This document shows, one piece after another, positions 1 to 33,436 of a stretch of 64,000 bases of DNA. The notes under the pieces are model-generated. The model made no database searches, was not told the origin of the DNA, and worked only from the letters and a program-made list of their open reading frames with translations. This DNA comes from Paraburkholderia sp. D15 (GTDB lineage Bacteria > Pseudomonadota > Gammaproteobacteria > Burkholderiales > Burkholderiaceae), in contig NZ_CP110396.1 in the NCBI RefSeq assembly GCF_029910215.1, forward strand, positions 1,984,001 through 2,048,000. The letters run 5' to 3'. Within the stretch, counting starts at the first letter, position 1. Each line of letters begins with the position of its first letter. The position numbers were made by a program, and so were the translations under genes.

Positions 1-401
1 GGTTGACGCATAAGCAACGCGCCATCGCTTGCGGGGCGTGACTGTGTCATAGCGGCGCGCCAGGGCGCTTTCGTCTCATTCGCGAGGCATAGCTTCGACC
101 TGAACGCCTTCCTGAGTTCGTCGCGCCCACCGCACGCACCTCGCTGACCGCGCTCACCGCATTCCCCGCATTCTCCGCATTCCCCGCATTCACCGCATTC
201 TCCGCGCTGGCGCGCACGCCGAGCCGTACTCGCCAGCGCCATCAAACTACCTCCGCGCCCGCATCACGCCCGCATCACCTCGCATCGCTTCGCCGCATTC
301 CCCGCATCCCCCTGAACAATTTCCGGTCCCATTCGTCAAGCAGGTGAGACGCAATAGCCGCGGCAACGTGGCGCGCCCCCGACGCTTATCACGACGCAAA
401 C
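1..401. other. Upstream region of the first NRPS gene, no gene seen
   Basis: I see no convincing coding sequence here. It contains a C-rich 9-bp tandem repeat (157-201) and then the leader of the first NRPS gene. I found no clear Fur box, unlike the other iron genes in the window. A CGTC tetranucleotide at 334-337 is the only hint of an OrbS/PvdS-type -10 element and is too weak to call. The promoter of the NRPS operon may lie upstream of the window. Confidence 0.5.
157..201. repeat. 9-bp tandem repeat (ccgcattcn x5)
   Basis: Five consecutive copies of ccgcattc plus one variable base (c, t, c, a, t), directly readable. Related units recur at about 293-311. The array lies about 200 bp upstream of the first NRPS start codon. 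No function is evident; slippage-prone spacer DNA is the simplest explanation. Confidence 0.8.
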
Positions 402-3400
402 ATGAACCAGCCACCAGCTCAGGACACCGCGGGCCAAACCGCCGCCGCGCGCGACCGTCGCGCGATCTCCGCCAGGTACGCCGCATTGAGCGCGGACAAA
501 CGCGCGCAACTGCGCAGCCGCGTCGCCGACCTGAACATCGATCCCGCGCAATTGCCGATCGTGCCGATCGCCGCGCGCGATGGCGATGACGCCGGCCACG
601 CGCCGCTCTCCGATAGCCAGGCGCAACTGTGGTTTCTCGCGCGGCTCGAACCGGACAGCGCCGCCTATCACATGAGCGGCGGCGTGCGTCTGGACGGCGC
701 GCTCGACGAACGCCGCCTGCGCGCCGCCGTGGCCGCGCTGGTCGAGCGTCACGAGATGTTGCGCACGCGGATCGTCGAACGTGACGGCGAACCCTTGCAG
801 ATCGTCGATGACTTCGACGCCGTGCAGGCCGAGGCGTTGTGCGAGTTCCACGATCTGCGCGTCGCGGGCAGCGGAACCGAAGCCGACGCCGACGCCGCCT
901 CCAAAGCCAGCATCGCCGCCTTCACCCAAACGTTTTCGCTGCGTCCCTTCGATCTCGAACGCGGGCCGCTGTGGCGAATCGCATTCCTGACGATCGGCGC
1001 CGACGCCCACGTGCTGCTGTTGACCATGCATCACCTGATTTCCGACGGCTGGTCGCTCGGCGTGCTGGTCAAGGATTTCGTCGCGGGCTACGCGGCCGAC
1101 GCCGCGCCAACGCGCGACGCGTTACCGGTCCAGTTCCGCGACTATGTGGTCTGGCAGCGCGAATGGCGCGACGAAGCGCGCGAGGCGGCCGATCTCGACT
1201 ACTGGCGCAGCCGTCTTGGCGAGCCGCAAGATCCGCTCGCGCTGCCGTACGACCGCGCTCGCAACGGCGCGCGCGGCACGCATGGCGCGCGCGTGATCCG
1301 CGTGCTCGACACGCAGCAGGCGCAGGCCTGGCGCGCGTTCGTGCGCAGCCGGCGCGGCACGGTGTCGGCGGCGATGCTGGCCGTCTTCGATGTGCTGCTC
1401 GCGCGTCATAGCGGGCAGCGCGATCTGCGCGTCGGCATGCCGCTCGCGAATCGCGACCGCGCGGAAACCGCCGGCCTGATCGGCTGCTTCGTGAACACCG
1501 TGGTGATCGACGCGCAACTGGACAGCGCCGCGCCGTTCGACGCGTTGCTGGCCCAGGTGCAGCAGCGCGTCACGCAAGCGCTCGCGCATCAGCAGGTGCC
1601 GTTCGCACGCGTGGTCGAAGCGCTGCGTCCGCCCGCGATCGTCGGCGTCACGCCGGTGTTCCAGGCGATGTTCAACCTGCTCGACGTCTCCGGCGACGGC
1701 CTGCCCGAGTTGCCGGGGCTGCGCGCGTCCGAGTGGCGCGGCGAGCATCCGGTCGCGCGTTTCGATCTGACGCTCGACATCCGCGACGATGCCGACACCT
1801 TCGAATGCGCGCTCATCTACGCAACCGATGTGTTCGACGAAGCCACCGTCGCGCAACTCGCCGACGACTTCGTGAGCCTGATCGGGCAGATCGTCGCGCA
1901 GCCCGACTGTGCATTGGGGAATCTGCGCGTGGCGGCGGACGCAGCGTCGGCAGTTGCGGCGTCGGCCGGATCGATTGCAACGGCATTCCCGGCCTATCCG
2001 TTCGTTCCGCTGACCGACCGTCTGTTCGCGCTGTCGCAGTCGCAACCGGCGGCCCGTGCCGTGCACGCGGAAGACGCGCAACTCGACTATCGACAACTCG
2101 CCTCGGCCGCGCGTGCCGTCGCCGCGCGTTTGCTCGAAGCCGGCGTGCAGCGCGAGGAACGTGTCGGTCTGTGCGTGCAGCGCACGGCCGCCTTGCCGGC
2201 CGCGCTCTACGGCGTGCTGGCGAGCGGCGCGGCCTATGTGCCGCTCGATCCGGGCTATCCGGTCGAGCGGTTGCAATACATCATCGCGGATGCGGGCATT
2301 CGCCGTGTCGTCGCCGACGCGGCGTCGCGCGACAAACTTGCCGAATTGCTGACGCCGCTCGACTGCATCGTCGTCTCGATCGATGGCAACGAAATCGGCA
2401 ACGAAGGCGGCAACGAAGGCGGCAATGAAGGCCGCACCCAGGACGCAAACGCTGGAAGCCACCGCCATGTCCTGCCGGCTCCGCACCCCGACCAACTCGC
2501 CTACGTGATCTATACGTCGGGCTCGACCGGTCAGCCGAAAGGCGTCGGCGTCACGCATCGCAACGTCACGCGTCTGCTCGACGCGACCCACGCGCAATTC
2601 GGCTTCGGTCCCGCCGACGTGTGGAGCTGCTTCCACTCGTACGCGTTCGACTTCTCCGTCTGGGAATACTTCGGCGCGTTGTCGTTCGGCGGCACGGCCG
2701 TGGTGGTGCCGCATGGGGTCGCGCGTTCGCCGCAAGACTTCCACGCGCTGCTGCGCGAGACCGGCGTGACGATCCTGAATCAAACGCCGTCCGCGTTTCT
2801 GCCGCTCACCCAGGTCGAACTCGATCTGAACGCGCCGCTCCCCGCTTTGCGCTGCGTGATCTTCGGCGGCGAAAAACTCGAACCGGCGACGCTATCGCGC
2901 TGGCTCGCATGGCGCGGCGCGCGCGCACCGCGCCTCGTGAACATGTACGGCATCACCGAAACCACGGTGCACGTCACCGCGCGCGATATCACGCTCGCCG
3001 ACACCGAAGCCCTCACCGCGGCCGCCAGCGCGCCGAGCCTGATCGGCGCGCCGATTGCCGACCTGAGCCTGCACGTGCTCGACGCGGATCTGAACCCCGC
3101 TCCTTTCGGCGTGTGCGGCGAGTTGTGTGTCGGCGGCGCGGGTCTCGCGCGTGCGTATCTTGGCCGTCCGGGGCTGACCGCGAGCCGCTTCGTGCCCGAC
3201 CCGTTCGGGCCGCCGGGCGCGCGGCTCTACCGGTCGGGCGACGTCGCGCGCCGGCATCGCAACGGCGAACTCGAATACCTCGGCCGTAACGACGCGCAGG
3301 TCAAGATTCGCGGCTTCCGGATCGAGCCGGGCGAAATCCAGGCGGTGCTGATCGAGCATCCCGCGATCCGTTCGGCGGTGGTCGTGCCGGGTGCCGATCC

Positions 3401-6400
3401 GCAAGGCGGACTGCGTTTGATTGCCTACTACGTCAGTGCGGATGCCGACGTCGATGCGGCCGCGTTGCGCGAACACATTGCCGCGCGTTTGCCTGCGCAC
3501 ATGGTGCCGGCCGCCTTCGTGCCGATGGAGGCGTTGCCGCTGACATTGAACGGCAAGCTCGACGTACGCGCATTGCCGGCGCCAGGTGAAGTCGTGGTCG
3601 AACGTTCGCGTATCGCGCCGCGCACGCCGCAGGAAATCGCGCTCGCCGCGATCTGGCAAGACGTGCTGGGCGGCGCGCTGCCCGGCGCCGACGACGACTT
3701 CTTCGCGCTCGGTGGGCACTCGTTGTCGGCCGTCAAGGTGGTCGCGCGCGTGCGTCAACGGCTTGGCGTGAGCTTGCCGTTGCAGAGCGTGTTCAGCCTG
3801 CCGGTGCTGTCGCAACTCGCACGGGCTATCGAGGAGGCCGCGCTCGCCGCCGCGGAATCGGCAACCCAAGCCGCATCGGCAACCGGGGCATCCGCAAACA
3901 CAACCGCATCCGCCGACACGGCGCCGATCGCGCGCCGTCCCGCGAATGCGCAAGCGGACAACCTGCCGCTCTCGTTCGCGCAGGAACGTCTATGGGTGTT
4001 GTGGCAACTGGAACCGGAAAGCGCCGCGTATCACGTACCCGGCGCGGTGCGTCTGAGCGGATCGCTCGACACAGCGGCCGTGCGTGCCGCATTCGACACG
4101 ATCGTCGCGCGTCACGAAGCGCTGCGCACGACCTTCGTGGCCGTCGACGGCAAGCCGGTCCAGCGCGTCGCCGGCGCGGTCCGCTACGACTGGCGCACGG
4201 CGACGCTCGATCACGCCGAGCCACGCGCGCTGGCCGCCGCGTTGCACGACTGCGTGAGCGAGCCGTTCGATCTCGAACATGGCCAGTTGCTGCGTGTCGT
4301 CCTGCTGTCGTCGAGCGAGACCGAACACGTGCTCGCGGTGGTGATGCATCACATCGTGTCCGACGGCTGGTCGATGGACGTGCTGATCGACGAGTTCAGC
4401 GCCTGCTACGAAGCATCGCGACGCGGCTTCGCGCCCGATCTGCCGCCGCTGCCGATCCAGTGCGCGGATTACGCGTACTGGGAACGCGCCGAAGGCGGCC
4501 GCCGCGCGGCCGATCTCGACTGGTGGTGCGAGCGGCTTGCGGGCGACCAGCCGGTGCTGAACCTGCCGCTGACACGCGCGCGGCCGGCGACGCGCAGCGC
4601 GGCCGGCGGCCGTTGCCTGCGCCGGATCGATCCTCGAACGACGCGCGCGCTGCGCGAGTTGTCGCAACGCGAAGGCGCGACCTTGTTCATGGTGCTGCTC
4701 GCGTGCTATCAGACGCTGCTGCATCGCTATAGCGGGCAGGGCGATATCCGCATCGGCATTCCGGTCGCGAATCGCGAACGGCTCGAAACGGAATCGCTGA
4801 TCGGCTTCTTCATCAATACGCTGGTGATTCGCGGCGCGCCGGCCGGGCATCGGCCGTTCGATCAACTGCTCGCCGCCACGCGCGCCGAAGTGGTCGCCGC
4901 GCAGGCGCATGCGTCGGTGCCGTTCGCGCAACTGGTGGACGTCGTGCAGCCGCAACGCGATCTTGGTCTCACGCCGCTGTTCCAGACCATGTTCAACCTG
5001 CAGGTCACGCCGGCCGAACAATTCGCGAGTCTGAGCGGCATCACGGTCAGCGCGCTGGATCTGCCGGAACTCGGCGGCGAGACCGCGCAGTTCGACCTCA
5101 CGCTCGACATCACCGATCAGGGCGACGCGCTGCGCGTGTCGTTCGGCTACGCGAACGATATTTTCGACCGCGCGGTCATCGATCAAATTGCGGATCACTA
5201 TCTCGAACTCGTCGTGCAGGTGCTGGCCGCGCCTCGCCAGGCGCTCGCGGCGATTGCGCTGACGCCGGCGCGGACGGTAGGCGCGCCGGTCGCGGCGGAG
5301 CAGCCTTATGTGCCGGTGCTCGAACGTTTCATGCGCCAGGTGCAGGTGCAACCGGCGGCGCCCGCGTTGCGTTCGCCGGCCACGCCCGCCGAACCCGCGT
5401 TCGACTACGCGACGCTCGCCGCGCGCGCGCGCCAGGTGGGAGCGGTGCTGCACGCGGCCGGTGTGCGCGACGAAGCGCGCGTCGGTTTGTGCGTGTCCCG
5501 TTCGCCGTCGATGGTGGCCGCGCTGTTCGGCATCTGGAGCGCGGGCGCCGCCTTCGTGCCGCTCGATCCGGAATATCCGCCCGAGCGCCTCGCGCAGATC
5601 GTCGCCGATGCCGGTATCGATCACGTGGTGGTGGATCGCGTCAGCGCCGCGCGTCTGAGCGGCGTGCTAGCGGGACTCACGCTGCATGCGATGGAGGACA
5701 TGGACGCGCGCGCGGCAGCGAATGCGTCGCGATCGTCATCGCCGTTGTCCTTCACTCCACATATGCCGCGCATGCCGCTCGCGCCGCAACTCGCGTACGT
5801 GATGTACACGTCCGGCTCGACCGGCGTGCCGAAGGGCGTCGCGATGACGCACGCCGCGCTGTCCGTGCACGTCGACGACGTGATCGCGCGCTTCGGCGTC
5901 CACGCGGGCGATTGCGTGCTCCAGTTCTCGACCATCAATTTCGATGCCGCGCTCGAACAGTTGCTGCCCGCGCTGTGCGTCGGCGCGCGCGTCGTGCTGC
6001 GCGGCCCGGATCTTTGGAGCTGGCCGGAATTCAACGCGGTGCTGCGCGACGAAGCGGTGAGCGTGACCGACCTGCCGACCGCGTTCTGGCAGCAATGGCT
6101 CCGCGATCTGCCGGCGGCGCTGCCCGCGCTGCGTCTCGTGACGATCGGCGGCGAAGCGCTGAACGGCGCGGCGCTCGCGCAGTGGCTCGGCTGCGGCTTG
6201 CGCGACGTGCGCTTCGAGAACACTTACGGCCCGACCGAAGCGGCGATCTCCGCGCTCAGCCGCCGCACCGAAGCGGCCGACGTGGACGCGCCGGTCGTCA
6301 CGATCGGTCTGCCGTACCCCGGCCGTATCGCGCGTCTGCTCGACGAGTGGAGCAATCCGACGCCGGCGGGTGCGACAGGCGAGCTGTGCATCGGCGGCGA

Positions 6401-8615
6401 GGCATTGGCGCGCGGCTATCTCGGCCGGCCGGCGACGACCGCCGAGCGCTTCGTGCCGGACCCGTTCGGTCCGCCGGGTTCGCGCCTCTATCGCACCGGC
6501 GACGTGTGCGTGCTGCGCGCGGGCGATGCGCGGCACGGTTTCGACTACGTCGGACGCGACGACCGCCAGGTCAAGCTGCGCGGCTACCGGATCGAGTTGT
6601 CGGAAGTGGAGACCGCGTTGCGTGGGTTGCCTGGTGTGCGCGAGGCGATCGCGGTGATCAGCGGGGCGGACGACGCGCGCAAGCTGCTCGCCTACGCGGT
6701 GATCGACGACGCCGACAGCGAGCGTGCGGGCACGGCCCTGCACGCGGCGCTCGCGGAGCGCCTGCCGGCCTACATGGTGCCGGCGGCGGTCGTGCCGCTC
6801 GCGGCCTTGCCGCTCACGCCGAACGGCAAGGTCGACAAACGCGCGCTGCCGCCACCGCTGCTCGATAACGCCGACGCGCCGCGTGAGCTGACCGCCGCGC
6901 GTGACGAACGCGAAGCGCGTCTGCTCGCGATCTGGCGCGCGGTGCTGGGCCGCGACGAGATCGGCGTGGACGACAACTTCTTCGCGCTCGGCGGCGATTC
7001 GATCCTCGCGATTCAGGCAATCAGCCGTGCGCGTGCCGAAGGCATGGCGTTGACCGTGCGCGAACTGTTCGAACATCAGAGCGTGGCCGCACTGGCGCAA
7101 CGCGTGCCGCAAGCGGCGCCGCAGCGCGCCTATCGCGAGGTTGCGGGGGCGCTCGCGCTGACGCCGATTCAGCGCTGGTTCTTCGACGAACATCCGGACG
7201 GCCCGGCGCATTGGAATCAATCGGTATTGCTTGCGGCGAACGAGCGCTTGTCCGACGCTGCGCTGCAAGTCGCCGTGCAGACCGTGATGCAGCGTCACGA
7301 CGCGTTGCGTTTGCGTTTTTCGCGCGACGTTTCAGGCGCCGCGCGAGGCGAGTGGACCCAGCGCAGTCTGGCACGCGACGCGGCTTCCGATGCGGACGCG
7401 GCCAGTGCGATCGAATGTATCGATTTGCGCGGCGAAGCCGACTGGCAAGCGGCGATGTCCGCGCGCGGCGCGCAGGTGCAGGCGTCGCTGGATATCGAGC
7501 ACGGGCCGGTATGGCGCGCTGTTCGCTTCGACGTCCCCGATGGCGGTTCGCGTCTGCTGCTGGTCGTGCATCACCTGAGTATCGACGGCGTGTCGTGGCG
7601 CATTCTGCTCGAGGAACTGGGGCAAGCGTACGAACAGGCGCTAGCGGGACAGTCGATCGAATTGCCCGCGCAGAGTCTGAGCTGGGGCGACTGGACCGAA
7701 GCGCTGTCCGCTCACGCGCAGCGCGACACGGTGCGCGACGAATTGACCTACTGGCGCGCGCAATTGTCGGCGGCCTCGGCGTGGGACGACGCGGCGCGTG
7801 CACGTGGCGGGCTGCCGCTCGCGGCTCGGCTCGACGAGGTGGATCGCACGCTCGGCGCGAGCCAGGTGCTGCGTCGCAAGCTCGACGAAACGCGTACGCG
7901 GGCGTTGTTGCAGGAAGCGTCGTCGACGCAGCAAGGTCGCGTGGACGAGTGGTTGCTGGCTGCGCTGGTGAACACGCTCGCGGGATGGAGCGAACGCGCG
8001 GGCGTGCTGATCGAACTCGAAGGCCACGGCCGCGAGGAAGTGATCGACGGGGTGGATCTGACGCGCACGGTGGGCTGGTTCACGACGCGGTATCCGGTGT
8101 GGTTCGACGCGGTGAATGACGCAACCACCGACGCCGCGACCACGCTCGCCTCGGTGAAGACCACGCTGCGCAACGTGCCGAACAAAGGCCTGCACTACGG
8201 CGTACTGGAGTCCCTGAGCGGCGCAAATGAACGCAACGCGATCGCCGCCTTGCCGCGCGCGCAGGTGAGCTTCAACTACCTCGGCCAGTTCGGCCAGAGC
8301 GACAGCGCTACGCAGAACCGCATGCGCATCGCGACCGGCGAACACGCGGGCCAGGCCGCCGGCGCACACACCGTCTTCTCGTATGCGCTCGAACTGAACG
8401 CATTGATCGTCGACGGGGCGTTGTCGATCGACTGGCGTTACCTGCCGGGTCTGATCGACAGCACGCGTGCGCAGGCGCTCGCCGACACCTTCGACGCGCA
8501 ACTCGACGCCTTGCTGCAAACGCGGATCGGCAACGACACGCTGGCCGTTCATGGTTTCGACAGCGATCTCGCCGGCGAAGACCTCGACGCCTTGCTCGAC
8601 CAACTCGACGACTGA
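402..8615 (+). CDS. Non-ribosomal peptide synthetase, modules 1-2 (C-A-T-C-A-T-E)
   Basis: A 2737-residue NRPS. Order: C1 (about 65-500; HHLISDG at 210-216), A1 (about 530-1050; TSGSTG near 705), carrier domain with phosphopantetheine Ser about 1107, C2 (HHIVSDG from 1316), A2 (TSGSTG near 1803), carrier Ser about 2200, and a C-terminal epimerisation domain (HHLSIDG from 2390). Pocket residues aligned by eye to PheA give DFWNIGMVHK for A1, the known threonine code, and DAEDTGTISK for A2, which I cannot assign; Glu at the third position suggests an amine-bearing side chain such as (hydroxy)ornithine. The E domain implies a D residue 2. The protein begins with a condensation domain, so the first residue may be N-acylated or may receive an upstream intermediate. 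The second NRPS follows after 56 bp. Function as a siderophore synthetase is inferred from the neighbours. Confidence 0.95.
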   Translation: MNQPPAQDTAGQTAAARDRRAISARYAALSADKRAQLRSRVADLNIDPAQLPIVPIAARDGDDAGHAPLSDSQAQLWFLARLEPDSAAYHMSGGVRLDGALDERRLRAAVAALVERHEMLRTRIVERDGEPLQIVDDFDAVQAEALCEFHDLRVAGSGTEADADAASKASIAAFTQTFSLRPFDLERGPLWRIAFLTIGADAHVLLLTMHHLISDGWSLGVLVKDFVAGYAADAAPTRDALPVQFRDYVVWQREWRDEAREAADLDYWRSRLGEPQDPLALPYDRARNGARGTHGARVIRVLDTQQAQAWRAFVRSRRGTVSAAMLAVFDVLLARHSGQRDLRVGMPLANRDRAETAGLIGCFVNTVVIDAQLDSAAPFDALLAQVQQRVTQALAHQQVPFARVVEALRPPAIVGVTPVFQAMFNLLDVSGDGLPELPGLRASEWRGEHPVARFDLTLDIRDDADTFECALIYATDVFDEATVAQLADDFVSLIGQIVAQPDCALGNLRVAADAASAVAASAGSIATAFPAYPFVPLTDRLFALSQSQPAARAVHAEDAQLDYRQLASAARAVAARLLEAGVQREERVGLCVQRTAALPAALYGVLASGAAYVPLDPGYPVERLQYIIADAGIRRVVADAASRDKLAELLTPLDCIVVSIDGNEIGNEGGNEGGNEGRTQDANAGSHRHVLPAPHPDQLAYVIYTSGSTGQPKGVGVTHRNVTRLLDATHAQFGFGPADVWSCFHSYAFDFSVWEYFGALSFGGTAVVVPHGVARSPQDFHALLRETGVTILNQTPSAFLPLTQVELDLNAPLPALRCVIFGGEKLEPATLSRWLAWRGARAPRLVNMYGITETTVHVTARDITLADTEALTAAASAPSLIGAPIADLSLHVLDADLNPAPFGVCGELCVGGAGLARAYLGRPGLTASRFVPDPFGPPGARLYRSGDVARRHRNGELEYLGRNDAQVKIRGFRIEPGEIQAVLIEHPAIRSAVVVPGADPQGGLRLIAYYVSADADVDAAALREHIAARLPAHMVPAAFVPMEALPLTLNGKLDVRALPAPGEVVVERSRIAPRTPQEIALAAIWQDVLGGALPGADDDFFALGGHSLSAVKVVARVRQRLGVSLPLQSVFSLPVLSQLARAIEEAALAAAESATQAASATGASANTTASADTAPIARRPANAQADNLPLSFAQERLWVLWQLEPESAAYHVPGAVRLSGSLDTAAVRAAFDTIVARHEALRTTFVAVDGKPVQRVAGAVRYDWRTATLDHAEPRALAAALHDCVSEPFDLEHGQLLRVVLLSSSETEHVLAVVMHHIVSDGWSMDVLIDEFSACYEASRRGFAPDLPPLPIQCADYAYWERAEGGRRAADLDWWCERLAGDQPVLNLPLTRARPATRSAAGGRCLRRIDPRTTRALRELSQREGATLFMVLLACYQTLLHRYSGQGDIRIGIPVANRERLETESLIGFFINTLVIRGAPAGHRPFDQLLAATRAEVVAAQAHASVPFAQLVDVVQPQRDLGLTPLFQTMFNLQVTPAEQFASLSGITVSALDLPELGGETAQFDLTLDITDQGDALRVSFGYANDIFDRAVIDQIADHYLELVVQVLAAPRQALAAIALTPARTVGAPVAAEQPYVPVLERFMRQVQVQPAAPALRSPATPAEPAFDYATLAARARQVGAVLHAAGVRDEARVGLCVSRSPSMVAALFGIWSAGAAFVPLDPEYPPERLAQIVADAGIDHVVVDRVSAARLSGVLAGLTLHAMEDMDARAAANASRSSSPLSFTPHMPRMPLAPQLAYVMYTSGSTGVPKGVAMTHAALSVHVDDVIARFGVHAGDCVLQFSTINFDAALEQLLPALCVGARVVLRGPDLWSWPEFNAVLRDEAVSVTDLPTAFWQQWLRDLPAALPALRLVTIGGEALNGAALAQWLGCGLRDVRFENTYGPTEAAISALSRRTEAADVDAPVVTIGLPYPGRIARLLDEWSNPTPAGATGELCIGGEALARGYLGRPATTAERFVPDPFGPPGSRLYRTGDVCVLRAGDARHGFDYVGRDDRQVKLRGYRIELSEVETALRGLPGVREAIAVISGADDARKLLAYAVIDDADSERAGTALHAALAERLPAYMVPAAVVPLAALPLTPNGKVDKRALPPPLLDNADAPRELTAARDEREARLLAIWRAVLGRDEIGVDDNFFALGGDSILAIQAISRARAEGMALTVRELFEHQSVAALAQRVPQAAPQRAYREVAGALALTPIQRWFFDEHPDGPAHWNQSVLLAANERLSDAALQVAVQTVMQRHDALRLRFSRDVSGAARGEWTQRSLARDAASDADAASAIECIDLRGEADWQAAMSARGAQVQASLDIEHGPVWRAVRFDVPDGGSRLLLVVHHLSIDGVSWRILLEELGQAYEQALAGQSIELPAQSLSWGDWTEALSAHAQRDTVRDELTYWRAQLSAASAWDDAARARGGLPLAARLDEVDRTLGASQVLRRKLDETRTRALLQEASSTQQGRVDEWLLAALVNTLAGWSERAGVLIELEGHGREEVIDGVDLTRTVGWFTTRYPVWFDAVNDATTDAATTLASVKTTLRNVPNKGLHYGVLESLSGANERNAIAALPRAQVSFNYLGQFGQSDSATQNRMRIATGEHAGQAAGAHTVFSYALELNALIVDGALSIDWRYLPGLIDSTRAQALADTFDAQLDALLQTRIGNDTLAVHGFDSDLAGEDLDALLDQLDD
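2389..2435 (+). repeat. 12-bp in-frame repeat inside A1 (Gly-Asn-Glu-rich loop)
   Basis: Three to four near-identical units of ggcaacgaaggc encode a GNEGGNEGG-type insert between core motifs A2 and A3 of the first adenylation domain. It sits in a loop that varies in length in the family, so it is probably tolerated slippage DNA and not part of the active site. Confidence 0.7.
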
Positions 8616-8620
8616 ACCGG

Positions 8621-8640
8621 ACCGCCCGATGGGCGGTTTG
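8621..8640 (+). terminator. Hairpin between the two NRPS genes
   Basis: ACCGCCC-GAT-GGGCGGT is a perfect 7-bp stem with a 3-nt loop, followed by a short TTTG, 5 bp after the first NRPS stop codon. The T-run is short, so it may act as an attenuator or a transcript-stabilising stem and not a full terminator. Confidence 0.45.
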
Positions 8641-8654
8641 CTCCAACGAAAAAT

Positions 8655-8673
8655 AGTAGTGATTCTCATTAAT
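8655..8673 (+). promoter_or_regulatory. Candidate Fur box upstream of the second NRPS
   Basis: About 12 of 19 positions match the consensus GATAATGATAATCATTATC, with the core TGATTCTCATTA. It overlaps the first possible start codon of the second NRPS, suggesting an internal iron-controlled promoter. No clear -35/-10 pair is visible, so this rests on the Fur-like core alone. Confidence 0.45.
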
Positions 8674-11600
8674 GAGTGAAGCCATCATGACGACGAACCC
8701 GGATTTCCGTCGCAAGAGCAACATCGAATCGGTGCACCGTTTGCTCGGCGTGCAACCGGGCCTGTTGACCCAGGCCTTGCAAGCGGGCGCCGACGATCCG
8801 TACTACTCGCAATACGTGTTCGAACTGGAAGGCGCGCTGTCGATCGATGCATTCGACGGCGCGTGGCGCGACGTGGTCGCGCGTCACGAAATTCTGCGCG
8901 CGGATTTCCGCTGGGAAGGACTCGCGCAGCCCGCGATGATCGTTTATCGCGAGACGGACGCCGGTTGCGAGTACGACGATTGGCGCGCTCTGTCCGACGC
9001 GCAGCAGCATGCGCGTCTCGCGCAGGCGTGGGACGCGCGGCGCGCGGAGGGTTTCCATCTGGCGCGCGCGGCATCGTTGCAGTTGCATTTGATCCAGGTG
9101 GCGGAGCAGCGCTTCTGGTTCGTGTGGCGCATGCATCACGTGCAGCTCGACGGCTGGAGTCTGCCGATCGTGCTGCGCGAAGTGATGGCGCGTTACGCCG
9201 CGCGCAGCGCGGGGCTGGGTGGACCGCTTGCGCCCGCGCCGGGTCTGAAGGTCTATCGCACCTGGCTCGACGCGCAGGATCGCGACGCGGCCGAGGCGCG
9301 CTGGTGCGCGGCGCTTGCCGGCCTCGACGTGCCGACGCCGCTGCCCGCAAGCGCCGCGCAGACCGATGCGCAACGGCGCTACGCGGAACTGCGTCTGCGC
9401 CTCGATCCGGCCGCGAGCGCGGCGCTGGTCGAATTCGCGCGCGCTCAACGCGTGACGCTCGGTTCGGTCGTGCAGGCGGCGTGGGCGTTGCTGCTCGCGC
9501 GCCGCGCCGATCGCGAGGAAGCCGTGTTCGGCGTGACGGCGGCGGGACGGCCGGCCGAGATCGACGGCATGGACGCGATGGTCGGCGTGTTCATCAACAC
9601 GGTGCCGATGCCGGTGCGGCTGTCGGCGTCGCAAACGGTCGGCGACTGGGTGCGGGCGCAGCAGGCGCAGTCGTTCGCGTTGCGCGCGGTCGAGCACGTG
9701 CCGCTTGCGCGGATTCAGGCCGTGGCGAACGGCGGGCGGGCGCTGTTCGACAGCATCGTCGTGATCGAAAACTATCCGGTCGATTCGAGCGGCGCGCGCG
9801 CGGGCGATCTGCAGGTCAGGATGCTCGGCGCCGCCGACGTGCATGAGCCCGGCATGCGCTATACCGATGGCCGCAATCCCTATCCGCTCAGTCTGATCGT
9901 CGCGACGGGCGCGCAGTTCGACTACGTGCTGGCGTATGACACGCGGCGTTTCACGCATGCTGCCGTCGAGACGATCGGCGCGCAGTTGCGTGAGGTGCTG
10001 GCCGCCTTTGTCGCGCATCCGGAACGCGCGTTGGGCGAGATCGGCTTGCGGCCGCCAGCTTCGCCGGATGCGACGGCCGGTTCGAGTGTGCAACCGGCGC
10101 AAAGGGCGCAGCCAGCGCAGGCTTCGGTGGCTTATGTGCCGCTCGCTGCCGGCAATACCTTGCTCGCGCGCATCGCGCAACACGTTCGCACGCGGCCCGA
10201 TGCCGAGGCGCTTGCCGATGGCACGCGATCGCTCGACTGGCGCGCAGTGTGGAACGCTTCGGGACGACTGGCGCAACGGCTCGTCGATGCCGGCGTGACC
10301 CGCGAGTCGCGCGTTGCGGTCGTGTTGCCGCGCGGCGTCGATTTTGTACTCAGCGTGCTCGCGGTATGGCGTGCGGGCGGCGCGTATGTACCGCTCGATA
10401 TCGCTGCACCCACCGAACGTCTTGCGTGGCAGGTGAGCGATAGCCAGGCGCACGGCGTGATCGCGGGGAGCGATGTCGATGCGTGGTTGCCGTCCGGTAC
10501 GAAGCGAATCGACCCGGCGGAGGTTCTCGCCACGTTTGATGTCAACGCAACTGCACATGCAAATGAAAATGAAAACGAAAACGCCGCCGCCGCCGAACCG
10601 GACCTCGACATCGCACTCCCGCTGCCCGGCCAGCTCGCCTACCTGATCTACACCTCCGGCTCGACCGGCCGTCCGAAGGGCGTGATGATCGCGCACGACG
10701 CACTGAGCGCCTATCTCGACGCGTTGCTCACGCGCGTGCCGGACGGCATCGAGCGCGCGGCGTTTCTGTCGACGCCTGCCGCCGACCTCGGCCACACGAC
10801 GCTCTTCGGCGCGCTGTGGGCCGGCTGGACGCTGCACATCCCCGCCGAAGCGCTGAGCTTCGATCCCGACGCGTGCGGCGACTATCTGCGCCGCCATCGC
10901 ATCGACATGCTGAAGATCGTGCCGTCGCATCTCGGCGGCTTGCTGCAAGCCGCGCAACCCGGCCACGTGCTGCCCGCGCGTTGCCTCGTGCTGGGCGGCG
11001 AGGCGGCGAGCGGCGCGCTGATCGAACGCATTGCCGCGCTCGCGCCGCACTGCGTGGTGCTCAATCACTATGGTCCGACCGAAACCACCGTCGGCGCGTT
11101 GACGTGGCGCAAGCCGGCCGCCGATGTCGCGAGCCTGCCGCTCGGGCATCCGCTGCCGCACGCGAACGTGCGGTTGCTCGACGCGCACGGCAATCTCGCG
11201 GGCGACGCGGCGTACGGCGAGATCTGCATCGGCGGCGCGTCGGTGGCGCGCGGTTATGCCGGTCGGCCGGGGTTGACCGCAGAGCGTTTCGTGCCCGATC
11301 CGTCGGGGCATGGCGCACGCGTGTACCGCACGGGCGACCGTGGCCGCATCGACGAGCAGGGGCGATTCGTGTTCCTCGGCCGCCGCGACGATCAGGTGAA
11401 GATTCGCGGCTATCGCGTCGAACCGGAAGAGGTCGGCGCGTGCCTGCGTGCGTTGCCGGGCGTGCGCGACGGCATCGTGATCGCACGCGAAGACGACGCC
11501 GGCCGCGTGCAACTGCATGCGTTCGCCACCGGTGACAATCTGCGCGCGGACGCGTTGCGCGCGGCGCTCGCGCAGACCTTGCCGGATGCATTGGTGCCCG

Positions 11601-14600
11601 ACACCTTCACCGTGCTCGACGCGTTGCCGCTCACGCCGAACGGCAAGATCGACCGTCGCGCGCTGACGCCGATGCAAGCAGGCGCGGGCGCCGATGCGCG
11701 CGCCGTCGTCGCGCCGCGCACCGAGGCGGAAACGACCCTGCTGGCGATCTGGCAGGCCGCGCTCGGCCGCGAGGATATCGGCGTGACCGACAACTTCTTC
11801 GAGATCGGCGGCGATTCGATTCTCAGCCTGCGGATCATCGCGAAGGCGCGGCAAGCTGGGCTCGGCCTGACGCCGAAGCAGGTCTTCGACCATCCGACGA
11901 TCGAGGCCGCCGCGGCGGTCGCGAAGCCGGTGACGCCGAAAGCGCCACGCGCGAGCGGCGTGGGGGTGGCTTCGGCTTCTGCGTTGGCTGCATCGTCGAA
12001 CGCGGTGTCGAACGCGGCAGCGAGCGCTTCGGCCACGTTGCCGCTCACGCCGATTCAGGCTCGCTTCTTCGCCGAGCATCCCTCTGGCCCGAATCACTGG
12101 AACCAGTCGATGCTGCTCGCCGCGAACGAGCGTCTGTCGCTGGACGCGTTGCGCACCGCCGTGCACACCGTGATGGGCCGCCACGACGCGCTGCGTCTGC
12201 GCTTCACGCGCGAGGGCGAAGGCAACGGCAACGGCAACGGCGCAGCGGGCCGCTGGACCCAGCGTTGCGCGCCGTCCGAAACGAATACGGTGGACTACGT
12301 CGATCTGCGCGACGAGGCCGACTGGCAAGCAGCGATGTCCGCGCGGGGCGCGCAGGTGCAGGCGTCGCTCGATCTGGCGCAGGGACCGGTATGGCGCGCG
12401 GTGCTGTTCGACGTGCCGGGCGATAACTCGCGTCTGCTGATCGCCGTGCATCACCTGAGCATCGACGGCGTGTCGTGGCGCGTGTTGCTCGAAGATATCG
12501 GCGATGCATACGAACACGCGCTGGCGGGCCGTCCGATCGCGTTGCCCGCACCTAGCCTCAGCTGGAGCGAATGGACGGCGGCGCTGTCCGCGCATGCGCA
12601 GCGCGACACGGTACGCGACGAAGTGACCTACTGGCGCACACAGTTGTCGGAAACCACGAACTGGAGCGATGCGACGCGCGCGGCCGGCGGTTTGCCGCTC
12701 GCGTCGCGTCTCGACGAAACCGACAGCACGCTGGGCGCGAGCCGTACGATTCTGCGAGAACTCGATAGCGCGCGGACTCGTGCGTTGTTGCAGGACGTGC
12801 CGGGCGCGTACCGCACGCGCATCGATGAAGTCCTGCTTGCCGCGCTGGTCGAGACGCTCGCGGGCTGGAACGACGCGCAGGGCGTGCTGGTGGAGCTCGA
12901 AGGCCACGGCCGTGAAGACGTGATCGACGGCGTGGATCTGACGCGCACCGTCGGCTGGTTCACGACGCGTTATCCGGTCTGGTTCGAAGCGGCGCACGGC
13001 GGCGTGCCAACCCTGGCGGCGGTGAAGACCGCATTGCGCGGCGTGCCGAACAAAGGGCTGCACTACGGCGTGCTGGAATATCTCGGCGGCGCGGCGGAGC
13101 AGGCGGCCATCGCCGCGCTGCCGCGTGCGCAGGTGAGCTTCAACTATCTCGGCCAGTTCGGTCAGAGCGATCGCGCGGATCAAGGCCGCATGCGTATCGC
13201 CGCCGACGAACACGCGGGCCGCGCCGCGAGTCCGCTCGAACGTTGCGGGCATGCACTCGCATTCAACGCGTGGATCGTCGACGGCGCGTTGTCGATCGAA
13301 TGGCGGCATGTGCCGGGTGCGGTCGCGCCGGCCACGGCGGAGGCGTTGGCCAGCGCGTTCGATACCCATCTGCGAGCGTTGATCGACCACTGCGCGACGG
13401 CGCCGCGCGCGGCGACCTCGGCGGATTTCCCGTTGTCCGGTCTCGACGAAGCGGGCCTGCACGCGCTCGCGTTGCCGCTCGACAACGTCGACGACATCTA
13501 TCCGGCCACGCCGTTGCAACAGGGGCTGATTTTCCACGCGCAATTGCGTCAGGGCAGCGGCACCTACGTCAATCAATTGCGCCTGACGCTGAGCGGCGCG
13601 CTGGATGCCGCGCGTCTCGCCGATGCCTGGCGCGCCACGGTCGCGCGTCATGACGTGTTGCGCACCGCGTTCCGTTATCGCGGCGATGGCGAGTTGCTGC
13701 AAGTGGTCTATCGCCGGGCGGAGTTATCCGTGGCATTCCACGCGTGGCACGGCGAAAGCAACGGCGTGCGTTACGACGACCGCCTGCATGCATGGTGCGC
13801 GCAGGATCTCGCGCAAGGTGTCGAGATCGAGTCCGCGCCGCTGATGCGTGTGAACGTGTTCGCGCGTCCGGACGGCGCGCACGATCTGATCTGGACCAGC
13901 CATCATGCGTTGACCGATGGCTGGAGCAGCGCACGTCTGCTCGATGAAGTCGGTGCGCACTATGCGGCCGCGACGCGTGGTGAGACCGCGCGGCTCGCGC
14001 CGGCGGGGCGCTATCGCGATTACGTCGCGTGGCTCGGTGCGCAGGGTCCGGAGGCCGCGGCGCAGGCGGTATGGCGCGAACGCTTCGACGGCTTCGACGA
14101 TCCGGTGATGCTCGACGCCGCGCTCGGCCGCACCGCGCAACCGCGTCAAGGGCTGTTCCATGTCGAGCAACGCGTGTCGGTCGAGGTCGAGCAGGCGTTG
14201 CGAACGGCGGCGCAGCGCGCGCAGGTCACGCTGAATACGTTGATCCAGGGCGGCTGGGCATTGCTGCTCGCGCGCTATGGCGGCCGCGACGCGGTGATGT
14301 TCGGCGTGACCACGTCGGGGCGCAGCGCGGGCAATGAACGCGTGCCGGGCATCGACGCGATGCTTGGGCTTTTCATCAACAGCCTGCCGCTTGGTGTGCG
14401 CGTGCCGGCGGATCGCGCGGCGGCGGACTGGCTGCGCGATCTGCAACGCGCGAACGCCGAGCTGCGCGAACACGAGCACGTGTCGCTCGCGCAGGTGCAA
14501 CGCTGGCTCGGCCGTAGCGGCAGCGCGTTGTTCGATACGCTGCTCATTTTCGAAAACTACGATACCGGCGAGCGTCGCCCCGGGAGCGCGGCCGATGCCG

Positions 14601-17527
14601 GCGGTCTCACGGTCAGCGCGGCGGCGGCGGTCAATCGCACGCACTATCCGCTGACGCTGAGCGTGACGCCGGGTCAGACGCTGTCGTTCGAATGGGCGTG
14701 GGACGGCGAGTATCTCGATCGCGCGACCGTTTCGCGGCTGGCGGCCGATTATCTTGGGTTGCTGACGCAACTGGCCGAGGCGGCGAGTGCGACGGTCGAT
14801 GTGGCCGATGCGGTTCACGCTGCCAATGCCAAAGCGGCGAAGGTCGGGGCGATCGGTGTGCGGCGTGACGCTCACGATGCGGTAACGGTCGCTCCCGCCA
14901 GCGCGATCGCGCTGCCGTCTTGCGTCGCGCGTACCGCGTCGCAAGACGGCGCGCGCATTGCGATTGCGTGCGGCGAACGGCAACTCGACTACCGCACGCT
15001 GGTCGCGCGGTCGCAGGCACTCGCTCGCAACCTGCTGCGTTCGGGCGTGACGGGTGAAGCGCGGGTCGGCGTGTGCGTCGCGCGTTCGGAACAACTGCCG
15101 CTCGCGTTGCTGGGTGTGCTGACGAGCGGCGCGTGCTATGTGCCGCTCGATCCCGACTATCCGGCGAGCCGTCTGCAATGGATGATCGAAGACGCCGGCA
15201 TTCGGACCGTCGTGATCGATGCCGCCACGCGGGCACGCGTTGGCCATCCCGGTTCGCTGTTCGATGGCTTGACGCTAATCGATGTCGAGACCGCGAGCGT
15301 TGTCGAGGTCAGTGATCTCGACGGCACGACTCCCTCCGATTTGCCCGCGCTGCATCCCGAACAACTCGCGTATGTGATTTACACGTCCGGCTCGACGGGC
15401 CGCCCGAAGGGCGTCGCGATCAGCCACGGCGCGCTCGACCGCTTCCTGCAGTCGATGACCCGCGTGCCCGGCCTCGCCCATGACGACGTGCTGTTGTCCG
15501 TCACGTCGCCGTCGTTCGACATCTTTGCGCTCGAAGCGTACGCGCCGCTGCTGCTCGGCGCGCGCGTCGAGATCGCGACGCGCGCCGAGGTGGTGGACGG
15601 CGAGCGCCTCGCCGCGCGTCTCGCGCAGACCGGCGCGAACGTGATGCAGGCAACGCCGAGCGGCTGGAAGTTGTTGCTTGCCACCGGCTGGCAGGCGCCC
15701 GCCGGTTTCCGCGCGCTGTGCGGCGGCGAAGCGCTCGCTGACGATCTCGCCGCGGCGCTGCGTGCACGCGGCGTCGCGTTGTGGAACATGTACGGCCCGA
15801 CCGAGACGACGGTGTGGTCGAGCGTGGCGCACATCGACGGCACCGCGCCGATCGCGCTCGGCGCACCGATCGACCACACGGCGTTGCGCGTGCTCGACGC
15901 TCATGGTCATCAAGTGCCGCAAGGCGGCGCGGGTGAGCTGTACATCGGCGGCGAGAACCTGGCGCGCGGCTATCTCGGCCGCGCCGCGCTGACCGCCGAG
16001 CGCTTCGTGCCCGATCCGTTCGGCGCGCCGGGCGCGCGTCTGTACCGCACGGGCGACGCGTGCCGCGTCGGCGTGGATGGATATTTGCGTTACCTCGGCC
16101 GTCTCGATCAGCAGGTGAAGTTGCGCGGGCATCGCATCGAGATCGGCGAAATCGAGGCAGTGCTGCGCGCGCAACCCGGCGTGCGCGATGCCGCGGTCGT
16201 GCTGCTCGACGGTGACGGGCAGGCCGCGCGTCTGGCCGGTGCGCTGGTACGTGCCGATGCCGGCGGACCTGGTGAGCCTGGTGAGCTCGCGCTCGAAGCC
16301 CTCCAGCGCGCGGTGGCGGCGGCCCTGCCGTCGCACATGGTGCCGACGGTGTGGCGTGTGTGCGAGGCGTTGCCGCAGACGCCGAACGGCAAGCTCGACC
16401 GCCGCGCGCTCGCCGATGCGTGCGCCGCCGAAGCCGCGCCGGCGGCGGCGCGCCGCGCGCCCCGCACGCCGCTCGAAACCACGCTTGTCGATACGTGGCA
16501 GCGCGTGCTCGGGCAAAGCACGATCGGCATCGACGACGACTTCTTCCAGCTCGGCGGCGATTCGCTCGCGGCGATGCGCGTGATGGCGCAACTGCGCGCG
16601 GCCGGCGTCGCCGCATGTTCGCTCGAAATGCTGTTCGTGCAACGCACGCCGGCCGCGCTGGCGGCGGCGATCGAAGAAGGCGCGGCGGACTGGCCCGGCA
16701 ATCTGGTCGCGTTGAATGGCGCGCCGAAGCACTCGGCCACGACGCTGTTCTGCATTCACCCCGGCTTCGGTCTCGTCAACGGCTATGCGCCGCTCGCCGC
16801 CGCGTTGCCGCGCGATGTGCGGGCGATCGGCGTGCAATCGCCGCGCTACACCGAAGCGCAATGGCAACCGGCCGACTTCGCCGCGTGGATCGCCGACTAC
16901 GTCGCGCGGATTCGCGCTGCGCAGCCGCACGGCCCGTACCGCCTGCTCGGCTGGTCGCTCGGCGGTCTGCTCGCCGCGCACATCGCGCAGGCGCTCGAAC
17001 GTGCAGGCGAAACGGTCGCGTGGCTCGGCGTGCTCGATACCGATCCGGACCCGGCGCCGGTCGATCCGGATGCGAGCGTGCTCGACCTCGACACGCTGCG
17101 CGGCTATCTCGCCCCGCGCTCGCCGGAACGCGCGGCCGCGCTCGATACGCTGCACGCCACCGGCGACAGCCCCGCTGCCTTGCTCGACGCCGCGCGCGCC
17201 GCGGGTCTGATCGACGCCGACGAACAAGCCACGCTGCACAGCCTCGTCGACGTGGTGCGGTTGCAGCGTCGCTTGCTGGCGGGACGTCCCGCGGTTCACG
17301 TGCGCGCCGACATCGACGTGTGGCAGGTCAGCGACGCCACGCGCTCCGACGCCTCCGCGTGGCGCGCCGTCACCGGCGGCGTCGCGCATGCGGTGGCCGC
17401 GCTCGCGACGACGCACGACGCCATCGTTCATCACCCGTCGGTACGGGATGCCGTGCGCGCGCGTTTGCGCGCGGGCGGCGCCACCGTCGACGACATCCAT
17501 TCAGTAGACAACGGAAGGCCGCAATGA
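8672..17527 (+). CDS. Non-ribosomal peptide synthetase, modules 3-4 (C-A-T-E-C-A-T-TE)
   Basis: A 2951-residue NRPS; a start at 8687 (2946 residues) is equally plausible because the 8672 ATG has no ribosome site and overlaps the Fur-like box. Order: C3 (HHVQLDG from 155, with an altered first C motif, GVQPGLLTQAL), A3 (TSGSTG near 661), carrier Ser about 1049, E (HHLSIDG from 1260), C4 (ATPLQQGLIFH, a D-acceptor signature; HHALTDG from 1744), A4 (TSGSTG near 2238), carrier Ser about 2631, and a thioesterase with GWSLGG (Ser about 2762). Pocket codes read by eye are DLTKVGHVGK for A3 (aspartate, one change from DLTKVGHIGK) and DILQLGMVWK for A4 (close to known glycine codes). The E domain implies D-Asp, probably beta-hydroxylated by the TauD-like enzyme at 21089. 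The terminal thioesterase releases the tetrapeptide. The ornithine monooxygenase gene follows 44 bp downstream. Confidence 0.95.
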   Translation: MSEAIMTTNPDFRRKSNIESVHRLLGVQPGLLTQALQAGADDPYYSQYVFELEGALSIDAFDGAWRDVVARHEILRADFRWEGLAQPAMIVYRETDAGCEYDDWRALSDAQQHARLAQAWDARRAEGFHLARAASLQLHLIQVAEQRFWFVWRMHHVQLDGWSLPIVLREVMARYAARSAGLGGPLAPAPGLKVYRTWLDAQDRDAAEARWCAALAGLDVPTPLPASAAQTDAQRRYAELRLRLDPAASAALVEFARAQRVTLGSVVQAAWALLLARRADREEAVFGVTAAGRPAEIDGMDAMVGVFINTVPMPVRLSASQTVGDWVRAQQAQSFALRAVEHVPLARIQAVANGGRALFDSIVVIENYPVDSSGARAGDLQVRMLGAADVHEPGMRYTDGRNPYPLSLIVATGAQFDYVLAYDTRRFTHAAVETIGAQLREVLAAFVAHPERALGEIGLRPPASPDATAGSSVQPAQRAQPAQASVAYVPLAAGNTLLARIAQHVRTRPDAEALADGTRSLDWRAVWNASGRLAQRLVDAGVTRESRVAVVLPRGVDFVLSVLAVWRAGGAYVPLDIAAPTERLAWQVSDSQAHGVIAGSDVDAWLPSGTKRIDPAEVLATFDVNATAHANENENENAAAAEPDLDIALPLPGQLAYLIYTSGSTGRPKGVMIAHDALSAYLDALLTRVPDGIERAAFLSTPAADLGHTTLFGALWAGWTLHIPAEALSFDPDACGDYLRRHRIDMLKIVPSHLGGLLQAAQPGHVLPARCLVLGGEAASGALIERIAALAPHCVVLNHYGPTETTVGALTWRKPAADVASLPLGHPLPHANVRLLDAHGNLAGDAAYGEICIGGASVARGYAGRPGLTAERFVPDPSGHGARVYRTGDRGRIDEQGRFVFLGRRDDQVKIRGYRVEPEEVGACLRALPGVRDGIVIAREDDAGRVQLHAFATGDNLRADALRAALAQTLPDALVPDTFTVLDALPLTPNGKIDRRALTPMQAGAGADARAVVAPRTEAETTLLAIWQAALGREDIGVTDNFFEIGGDSILSLRIIAKARQAGLGLTPKQVFDHPTIEAAAAVAKPVTPKAPRASGVGVASASALAASSNAVSNAAASASATLPLTPIQARFFAEHPSGPNHWNQSMLLAANERLSLDALRTAVHTVMGRHDALRLRFTREGEGNGNGNGAAGRWTQRCAPSETNTVDYVDLRDEADWQAAMSARGAQVQASLDLAQGPVWRAVLFDVPGDNSRLLIAVHHLSIDGVSWRVLLEDIGDAYEHALAGRPIALPAPSLSWSEWTAALSAHAQRDTVRDEVTYWRTQLSETTNWSDATRAAGGLPLASRLDETDSTLGASRTILRELDSARTRALLQDVPGAYRTRIDEVLLAALVETLAGWNDAQGVLVELEGHGREDVIDGVDLTRTVGWFTTRYPVWFEAAHGGVPTLAAVKTALRGVPNKGLHYGVLEYLGGAAEQAAIAALPRAQVSFNYLGQFGQSDRADQGRMRIAADEHAGRAASPLERCGHALAFNAWIVDGALSIEWRHVPGAVAPATAEALASAFDTHLRALIDHCATAPRAATSADFPLSGLDEAGLHALALPLDNVDDIYPATPLQQGLIFHAQLRQGSGTYVNQLRLTLSGALDAARLADAWRATVARHDVLRTAFRYRGDGELLQVVYRRAELSVAFHAWHGESNGVRYDDRLHAWCAQDLAQGVEIESAPLMRVNVFARPDGAHDLIWTSHHALTDGWSSARLLDEVGAHYAAATRGETARLAPAGRYRDYVAWLGAQGPEAAAQAVWRERFDGFDDPVMLDAALGRTAQPRQGLFHVEQRVSVEVEQALRTAAQRAQVTLNTLIQGGWALLLARYGGRDAVMFGVTTSGRSAGNERVPGIDAMLGLFINSLPLGVRVPADRAAADWLRDLQRANAELREHEHVSLAQVQRWLGRSGSALFDTLLIFENYDTGERRPGSAADAGGLTVSAAAAVNRTHYPLTLSVTPGQTLSFEWAWDGEYLDRATVSRLAADYLGLLTQLAEAASATVDVADAVHAANAKAAKVGAIGVRRDAHDAVTVAPASAIALPSCVARTASQDGARIAIACGERQLDYRTLVARSQALARNLLRSGVTGEARVGVCVARSEQLPLALLGVLTSGACYVPLDPDYPASRLQWMIEDAGIRTVVIDAATRARVGHPGSLFDGLTLIDVETASVVEVSDLDGTTPSDLPALHPEQLAYVIYTSGSTGRPKGVAISHGALDRFLQSMTRVPGLAHDDVLLSVTSPSFDIFALEAYAPLLLGARVEIATRAEVVDGERLAARLAQTGANVMQATPSGWKLLLATGWQAPAGFRALCGGEALADDLAAALRARGVALWNMYGPTETTVWSSVAHIDGTAPIALGAPIDHTALRVLDAHGHQVPQGGAGELYIGGENLARGYLGRAALTAERFVPDPFGAPGARLYRTGDACRVGVDGYLRYLGRLDQQVKLRGHRIEIGEIEAVLRAQPGVRDAAVVLLDGDGQAARLAGALVRADAGGPGEPGELALEALQRAVAAALPSHMVPTVWRVCEALPQTPNGKLDRRALADACAAEAAPAAARRAPRTPLETTLVDTWQRVLGQSTIGIDDDFFQLGGDSLAAMRVMAQLRAAGVAACSLEMLFVQRTPAALAAAIEEGAADWPGNLVALNGAPKHSATTLFCIHPGFGLVNGYAPLAAALPRDVRAIGVQSPRYTEAQWQPADFAAWIADYVARIRAAQPHGPYRLLGWSLGGLLAAHIAQALERAGETVAWLGVLDTDPDPAPVDPDASVLDLDTLRGYLAPRSPERAAALDTLHATGDSPAALLDAARAAGLIDADEQATLHSLVDVVRLQRRLLAGRPAVHVRADIDVWQVSDATRSDASAWRAVTGGVAHAVAALATTHDAIVHHPSVRDAVRARLRAGGATVDDIHSVDNGRPQ

Positions 17528-17571
17528 GCGGCCGCTCCATCCCGAATCATTTCCAAAAGGAGTGCGTAAGC

Positions 17572-20234: not shown

Positions 20235-20275
20235 AGTATCATTGCCAAAATTATTTCACGAGAGAGTTGCATTCG

Positions 20276-20344
20276 ATGACGCATCGACAGCCTGCATTAA
20301 ATCGCCTCATTTGCGTGCCTGCCGTTGCGGCATTTCTGCTGTGA
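20276..20344 (+). CDS. 22-codon leader ORF overlapping the thioesterase start
   Basis: ATG at 20276, preceded by GAGAG about 9 bp upstream, opens a 22-residue ORF beginning MTHRQPALNRL. Its stop TGA (20342-20344) overlaps the GTG start of the thioesterase as GTGA. The thioesterase GTG has no ribosome site of its own, so translation may be coupled to the leader. Whether the peptide is made is unknown. It could instead be fortuitous. Confidence 0.4.
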   Translation: MTHRQPALNRLICVPAVAAFLL

Positions 20345-33423: not shown

Positions 33424-33436
33424 GCAGGAGCGTTCG

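Follow-up and report, generated by a model that had tools for sequence, protein, structure and literature searches.

A conserved seven-module NRPS locus of Paraburkholderia sp. D15 predicted to make an enlarged siderophore of the ornibactin kind

A 42.7-kb locus of Paraburkholderia sp. D15 (C2:1964279-2006978) probably directs the synthesis of a seven-residue siderophore related to ornibactin, for which we propose the structure N5-acyl-N5-hydroxyornithine - D-beta-hydroxyaspartate - Gly - Thr - D-X5 - D-beta-hydroxyaspartate - Gly. Its genes and their conservation point to a real siderophore locus, complete by its appearance and of the ornibactin kind, in which the assembly line has been enlarged, the structure of the product being a prediction from sequence. 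In the openly accessible literature searched, MIBiG and most subscription journals lying outside its scope, we came across no siderophore with such a sequence; the first-pass annotation of the same DNA had likewise known of none for the four residues that it read. The locus matters as the predicted source, in bacteria associated with soil and plants, of a siderophore whose sequence and length have not been described, and, taken together with orb and mba, as a test case for an NRPS line that gains modules while the transport and regulation genes are kept.

The 64,000-nucleotide stretch that was analysed (the window, position 1 of which is C2:1984001) opens in the middle of the cluster. A condensation-domain search of the whole 8.33-Mb genome (three contigs) located, on the strand that carries the NRPS genes of the window, a 2746-aa NRPS (N0) that stops 7.9 kb short of the first of them; together with a 732-aa A-T protein it occupies C2:1966098-1976536. 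Beyond the cluster the search gave a single Condensation match, under the curated cut-off. The three NRPS genes and the A-T gene share one orientation, and between them lie the receptor and ABC genes. The features of the locus are as follows.

C2:1964279-1966048, minus strand: OrbE-like exporter, named by 50% homology to the orb locus; gene end inferred near 1965937
C2:1966098-1968296, plus strand: A-T protein, 732 aa, module 1
C2:1968296-1976536, plus strand: NRPS N0, 2746 aa, modules 2-3, C-A-T-E-C-A-T
C2:1976709-1978997, upstream of the window: OrbA-like TonB receptor
C2:1979043-1979843, upstream of the window: ABC ATPase
C2:1979840-1981921, upstream of the window: fused FecCD permease
C2:1982603-1984006, plus strand: periplasmic binding protein gene, its final bases being window 1..6
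Window 402..8615, plus strand: NRPS N1, 2737 aa, modules 4 and 5, C-A(Thr)-T-C-A(X5)-T-E
Window 2037..3575, plus strand: module 4 A domain, DFWNIGMVHK (Thr), approximate limits from HMM matches
Window 5289..6851, plus strand: module 5 A domain (X5), DAEDTGTISK, approximate limits
Window 7146..8519, plus strand: E domain after X5, a condensation-family match that clusters with E domains
Window 8672..17527, plus strand: NRPS N2, 2951 aa, modules 6 and 7, C-A(Asp)-T-E-C-A(Gly)-T-TE
Window 10178..11668, plus strand: module 6 A domain, DLTKVGHVGK (Asp), approximate limits
Window 12035..13402, plus strand: E domain after Asp6
Window 14927..16423, plus strand: module 7 A domain, DILQLGMVWK (Gly), approximate limits
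Window 16742..17425, plus strand: terminal thioesterase domain, PF00975
Window 17524..18942, plus strand: PvdA-like Lys/Orn N-monooxygenase, inferred start
Window 19013..20116, plus strand: OrbL-like Acetyltransf_8 acyltransferase, inferred start
Window 20242..21075, plus strand: type II thioesterase, ORF limits, the real start probably further in
Window 21089..22075, plus strand: OrbG-like TauD-family Asp beta-hydroxylase, 57% to the OrbG-position protein, inferred start
Window 22171..22701, plus strand: OrbS-like ECF sigma factor, 42.5%
Window 22766..22978, plus strand: MbtH-like protein, 65% to the orb MbtH

Among the 25 best NCBIfam matches of N1 and N2, all were under the cut-off save the general adenylation model TIGR01733. 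Outside the locus, positions 31379-35748 of the window hold two ABC permease genes followed by genes of the PEP-mutase/isocitrate-lyase and aconitase families, apparently of ordinary metabolism.

The complete line consists of four proteins that together have seven A domains, in the order A-T, C-A-T-E-C-A-T, C-A-T-C-A-T-E and C-A-T-E-C-A-T-TE, and the serine of the carrier domain is kept in all seven modules. Pocket codes were read after alignment with MAFFT to the pocket fragment of GrsA PheA, verified against 1amu, which gave DGEATAGITK, DLTKVGHVGK and DILQFGLIYK (atypical for Gly) for modules 1-3 and, for modules 4-7, the four codes listed above, letter for letter as in the first-pass annotation. 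Two controls were run on the extraction: from the tistrellabactin locus six codes were recovered, all of them among the seven of Table 1 in PMC10391617, the seventh not being detected in the stretch taken, and the first A domain of MbaA returned DVETLGGISK, a code for a nitro-ornithine-type residue (PMC12283262). The predicted order of residues is X1 - D-Asp - Gly - Thr - D-X5 - D-Asp - Gly. The two NRPS genes which the first-pass annotation had placed at 402-17527 are indeed present, and its Thr-X-D-Asp-Gly stands as the final four residues; the "four-module" NRPS that it described was an artefact of the window edge, three further modules being encoded upstream.

The stereochemistry is consistent with the genes being read in this order, given that in a tree of C domains (covering the window strain, B. 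paludis, orb and mba) the three that come after the E domains of modules 2, 5 and 6 cluster with the post-Asp C domain of OrbI/MbaA, and the remaining three with L-accepting ones. Relationships among A domains were examined in three trees: a smaller one built from five of the 71 loci matching the A-T protein (codes were read from all 71, 227 domains in total), the four clusters compared below, three database proteins, and the orb and mba stretches with the first A domain of each left out; a larger one with 17 chosen groups, Tistrella and four further clusters, P. bannensis being left out; and an extension of the latter with OrbI-A1 and MbaA-A1. The Asp domain of N0 clusters weakly (about 0.8) with those of OrbI and MbaA in two of the trees. 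The two Gly domains come together in the smaller tree (support 0.984) and the second of them joins the Gly domains of graminine lines in the larger one, so that a simple copying of an Asp-Gly pair is not established.

The assembly line is conserved beyond the genus. Full-length relatives of the A-T protein with 57-84% identity occur in P. bannensis WP4_2_2, B. paludis MSh1 and Ps. quercus hsmgli-8, and others in P. busanensis (98%) and in a strain named P. xenovorans (80%); in P. busanensis P39 both the A-T and the N1 proteins are 98% identical to those of the window strain, which is accordingly P. busanensis itself or closely related to it. When the clusters of the window strain, P. bannensis, B. 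paludis and Ps. quercus were compared, the codes were the same or nearly so at all seven positions (28 codes read out of 28, with N0-A1 of Ps. quercus, which was missed by the motif, read separately). The order of 15 genes is identical in the first three, and the same in Ps. quercus save that the sigma and MbtH genes have changed places and the sigma gene, only 40% identical, is inverted. That Burkholderia-type bacteria share this order with a Pseudomonas speaks for a single product kept in all of them.

Among 105 proteins listed by a search with the A-T protein, eight had 58-98% identity and the next one 42%, and three of 71 loci in a locus scan, which depends on exact short peptide patterns so that copies may escape, had 57-84%, the others having at most 46%. 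In two taxon surveys with a cut-off of E <= 1e-150, which catches a copy like that of B. paludis (6.5e-173) and misses one like that of Ps. quercus (1e-143), the only genome found was that of the window strain (1 of 59 and 1 of 398, the best two candidates per genome being scored in the latter). A survey of the genus of Ps. quercus was positive in none of 298 genomes, but it missed even the known positive G061 and so carries no information on distribution. All 793 plasmid records matched by N1 were below 60% identity, and this search led only to the Tistrella locus.

Could the cluster make a peptide of another kind, such as a toxin-like or signalling lipopeptide, with uptake genes that adjoin it by chance? 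NRPS clusters have many possible products, but TonB receptor and ABC uptake genes sit between the NRPS genes in all four clusters, and genes for an ornithine N-hydroxylase, an Asp hydroxylase, MbtH and a sigma factor of iron-starvation type share the cluster, which makes this very improbable. Chelator genes, siderophore transport genes and NRPS genes are all combined here, as in nonribosomal peptide siderophore loci in general, and in all four genomes a single strong match for an ornithine N-monooxygenase exists, every time inside the cluster. The first-pass annotation had noted one hydroxyornithine route and one Asp hydroxylase, and a single ornithine N-hydroxylase and a TauD-type hydroxylase are in fact encoded after N2.

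Ornibactin and malleobactin come from related systems. For comparison, the orb locus was taken from a Burkholderia ambifaria contig (L039), with gene names that we assigned by position, and the mba locus from P. xenovorans LB400 (L051). Ten of the 11 accessory genes have orb homologues, with identities of 65% for MbtH, 57% for TauD, 51% for the ABC ATPase, 50% for both exporter and PvdA, 47% for the acyltransferase, 42.5% for the sigma factor, 42% for the permease, 41% for the receptor and 33% for the binding protein; the exception is the type II thioesterase, which is without a homologue in mba as well. Nine of the 11 have homologues in the mba stretch taken, which lacks one for the acyltransferase and matches the receptor at just 28%. 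In addition, N0 aligns over its full length with modules 2-3 of OrbI (42%), and a start with hydroxyornithine followed by D-hydroxyaspartate is suggested by the codes and clades of the first two modules, together with the E domain. These likenesses, and the antiSMASH region of P. busanensis P39 labelled 53% ornibactin (PMC10715207), presumably the same locus, might suggest that the product is simply ornibactin or malleobactin. We regard this as extremely improbable, since OrbI-OrbJ are two NRPSs with four A domains (acyl-hydroxyornithine, Asp, Ser and formyl-hydroxyornithine), whereas the present line has seven with other codes, Gly in place of Ser at position 3 and four further modules, as well as a terminal PF00975 thioesterase on N2 where OrbJ ends in a second C and a carrier domain (C-T). 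This C-T we take to be the putrescine end of ornibactin; moreover, no formyltransferase domain was found among the ORFs scanned. The order had already been recognised in the first-pass annotation as unlike that of ornibactin/malleobactin, and the seven modules and their codes bear this out. The homologues of the ten accessory genes thus argue for a locus of the ornibactin/malleobactin kind with a different and longer line that ends in a thioesterase.

Residue 1 is predicted by code and clade to be of the hydroxyornithine type. In the extended tree X1 falls in a clade of 15 domains (support 1.0) with OrbI-A1, MbaA-A1, OrbJ, MbaB and PvdJ-type domains, the last of which presumably have a hydroxyornithine-type substrate; the placement was unchanged by the addition of OrbI-A1 and MbaA-A1 and was likewise obtained in both other trees. 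The orb and mba domains load acyl- or formyl-hydroxyornithine (PMC5681537). In B. paludis and Ps. quercus the X1 code is DGEATGGITK, one residue off DGECTGGITK, which is one of the modified-ornithine codes (PMC12283262). The A-T protein was also considered as a FAAL and rejected on account of its place in the hydroxyornithine clade.

For the predicted seven-residue product, we propose that the PvdA-like enzyme (48% to that of the tistrellabactin locus) N-hydroxylates ornithine and that the OrbL-like enzyme acylates the hydroxyornithine, probably with a short 3-hydroxyacyl chain, as suggested by its 47% identity both to the OrbL-position protein and to the tistrellabactin GNAT. The standalone A-T protein would then load the acyl-hydroxyornithine, the OrbG-like enzyme would hydroxylate Asp on the carrier domain, one hydroxylase being assumed to serve both Asp modules, and the terminal thioesterase would release the product as free acid or ring. 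Transport would involve the OrbE-like exporter, the OrbA-like TonB receptor and the OrbBCD-like ABC parts, under putative control of the OrbS-like sigma factor.

The short divergent intergenic stretch between the exporter and A-T genes, just upstream of the window on C2, contains elements that by eye are conserved in all four species. A TACATTTTT/TTAAATTTTT ... TCGTC pattern faces the A-T gene, the exporter being faced by GACGAA ... GAAAAAA, and both in our judgement resemble iron-starvation sigma promoters. A scan with TAAA-N15-18-CGT, taken by us as the OrbS/PvdS-type promoter pattern, gave scattered matches. Four C-terminal cysteines of OrbS form an Fe(II) sensor (PMC9023288); the first of these is kept and the other three are absent in the OrbS-like sigma factor (22171-22701) of the window strain, P. 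bannensis and B. paludis, which has several extra cysteines in its N-terminal and middle parts and may sense iron differently from OrbS.

Ornibactin binds iron with two hydroxamates and one hydroxyaspartate (PMC5681537). In the present product, hydroxyornithine 1 and the two Asp modules are expected to provide three bidentate ligands, even with X5 as a non-ligand, provided that a single hydroxylase acts for both modules; residue 1 with its hydroxamate and the two hydroxyaspartates would then bind ferric iron. The first-pass annotation had counted only two bidentate ligands in a tetrapeptide, a shortfall due to the window edge: the upstream modules add X1 of hydroxyornithine type, a second D-Asp and Gly. 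The use of one hydroxylase for both Asp residues is the case in pandorabactin (PMC12144892) and has been proposed for the pyoverdine of P. syringae (PMC3207962).

Pandorabactin A/B, from the pan locus of Pandoraea, is acyl-OHOrn-OHAsp-Thr-OHOrn-Ala-OHAsp, made by six modules with a FAAL start and E domains in modules 1 and 4; both of its ornithines are N-hydroxylated and the metal is bound by one hydroxamate and two hydroxyaspartates (PMC12144892). Compared by description only, it shares with the predicted product the ligand set (two hydroxyaspartates and, if X5 is one, two hydroxyornithines) and Thr, in another order, and the two loci have in common MbtH, type II thioesterase, ornithine hydroxylase, Asp hydroxylase, acyltransferase and terminal thioesterase. 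The present line differs from it in its seven modules, its A-T start of the hydroxyornithine clade, Gly-Thr-X5, the Gly at the end and E domains in modules 2, 5 and 6.

A further ligand could be present, depending on the nature of X5. Its code DAEDTGTISK is identical at nine of ten positions, including Asp278, Ile330 and Ser331, to DAEDTGRISK, characterised as L-hydroxyornithine in tistrellabactin (PMC10391617), and hydroxyornithine falls just short of an even chance as residue 5. If residues 1 and 5 were acyl-hydroxyornithine and residues 2 and 6 beta-hydroxyaspartate, there would be four bidentate ligands, an ornibactin-type start (OHOrn-OHAsp-X) being lengthened by Thr-D-OHOrn and a second Asp-Gly pair; this full arrangement seems to us rather unlikely. 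If it is true, iron could be held in more than one way or two metals be bridged, and the molecule would be photoreactive at two sites. The first-pass annotation had set its own reading against a line with hydroxyornithine predicted for two modules, and X1, perhaps with X5, may provide just that, yet the line does not become ornibactin thereby.

Module 5 of the same seven-module siderophore could instead put in D-Gln (or D-Lys or D-Orn) as a non-ligand, leaving iron to hydroxyornithine 1 and the two hydroxyaspartates, and to this we give an even chance. In the trees the sister of the X5 domains is DAEYAGTITK of tistrellabactin (7/10 to the X5 code; support 0.70 in the larger tree and 0.935 in its extension), a domain characterised as D-Gln (PMC10391617), but the Gln code carries Tyr278 and the hydroxyornithine code is the closer match; for the residue itself, Gln is somewhat unlikely. 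A basic residue is less likely still. The non-ligand alternative is further suggested by DAEDTGTVVK (8/10), found in two genomes (G225 and G413) where the best ornithine-monooxygenase matches are weak, and by Asp278 and Thr322, which X5 shares with the Lys code DGEDHGTVVK (PMC3207962, PMC12283262). Lys or Orn had been considered for X5 on these two residues and on matches to DGEDHGTVVK domains, and was demoted by the tistrellabactin hydroxyornithine code one residue off, remaining only within the non-ligand alternative. In the larger tree the domain falls in a group (support 1.0) that contains the DVHRTG domains for graminine, the DAEY domains for Gln and the hydroxyornithine domain of tistrellabactin, DAEDTGRISK; with the three Tistrella domains of the group it has 49-51% identity.

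The predicted product differs from those of these neighbours. Tistrellabactin (T. mobilis pTM2, locus L153) contains graminine and repeated Gln in another order (PMC10391617). The best-scoring relatives of the X5 domain are the DVHRTG[LI] domains of gramibactin-type graminine lines in Burkholderiaceae (47-54%), the pocket of which differs from that of X5; graminine in these lines requires GrbD/GrbE, neither of which was noticed in the conserved gene set of the present cluster, and the graminine code DVHRTGLVAK is none of the seven codes of the present line. The lines of G225:C5 and G413:C10 (L148-L151) combine a module of code DAEDTGTVVK with modules for Asp and for Thr (two) and one of graminine type, with adjoining TauD, type II thioesterase and MbtH genes. 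Another line, at G405:C1:356000-395999 (L145-L146), has Ser, Asp, Ser, Asp, two identical DGEDHGTVTK modules, which were not taken as substrate labels, and a DGEAVGGVTK module; it lies close to a strong ornithine monooxygenase match and an acyltransferase and is a candidate for another hydroxamate-type siderophore.

P. busanensis P39, a close relative of the window strain, is a biocontrol candidate that was siderophore-positive on CAS plates, a trait not tied to the present locus in that report (PMC10715207). In the B. cepacia complex, B. paludis has been described as an exception to ornibactin production, in which ornibactin synthesis is missing and the genes for ferric-ornibactin transport are kept, interpreted as use of the siderophore of another species (PMC5681537), and pyochelin was reported in its description (PMC5174137). 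B. paludis MSh1 carries the seven-module cluster, and a separate OrbA-like receptor is encoded at G060:C14:139245-141761 (81%, the cluster's own receptor on C33 having 42%); P. bannensis likewise has a second OrbA-like match (G059:C5, 62%). Both species may use foreign ornibactin-type siderophores, and the presence in B. paludis of the cluster together with the separate receptor suggests that it may make a siderophore of its own and use ornibactin too.
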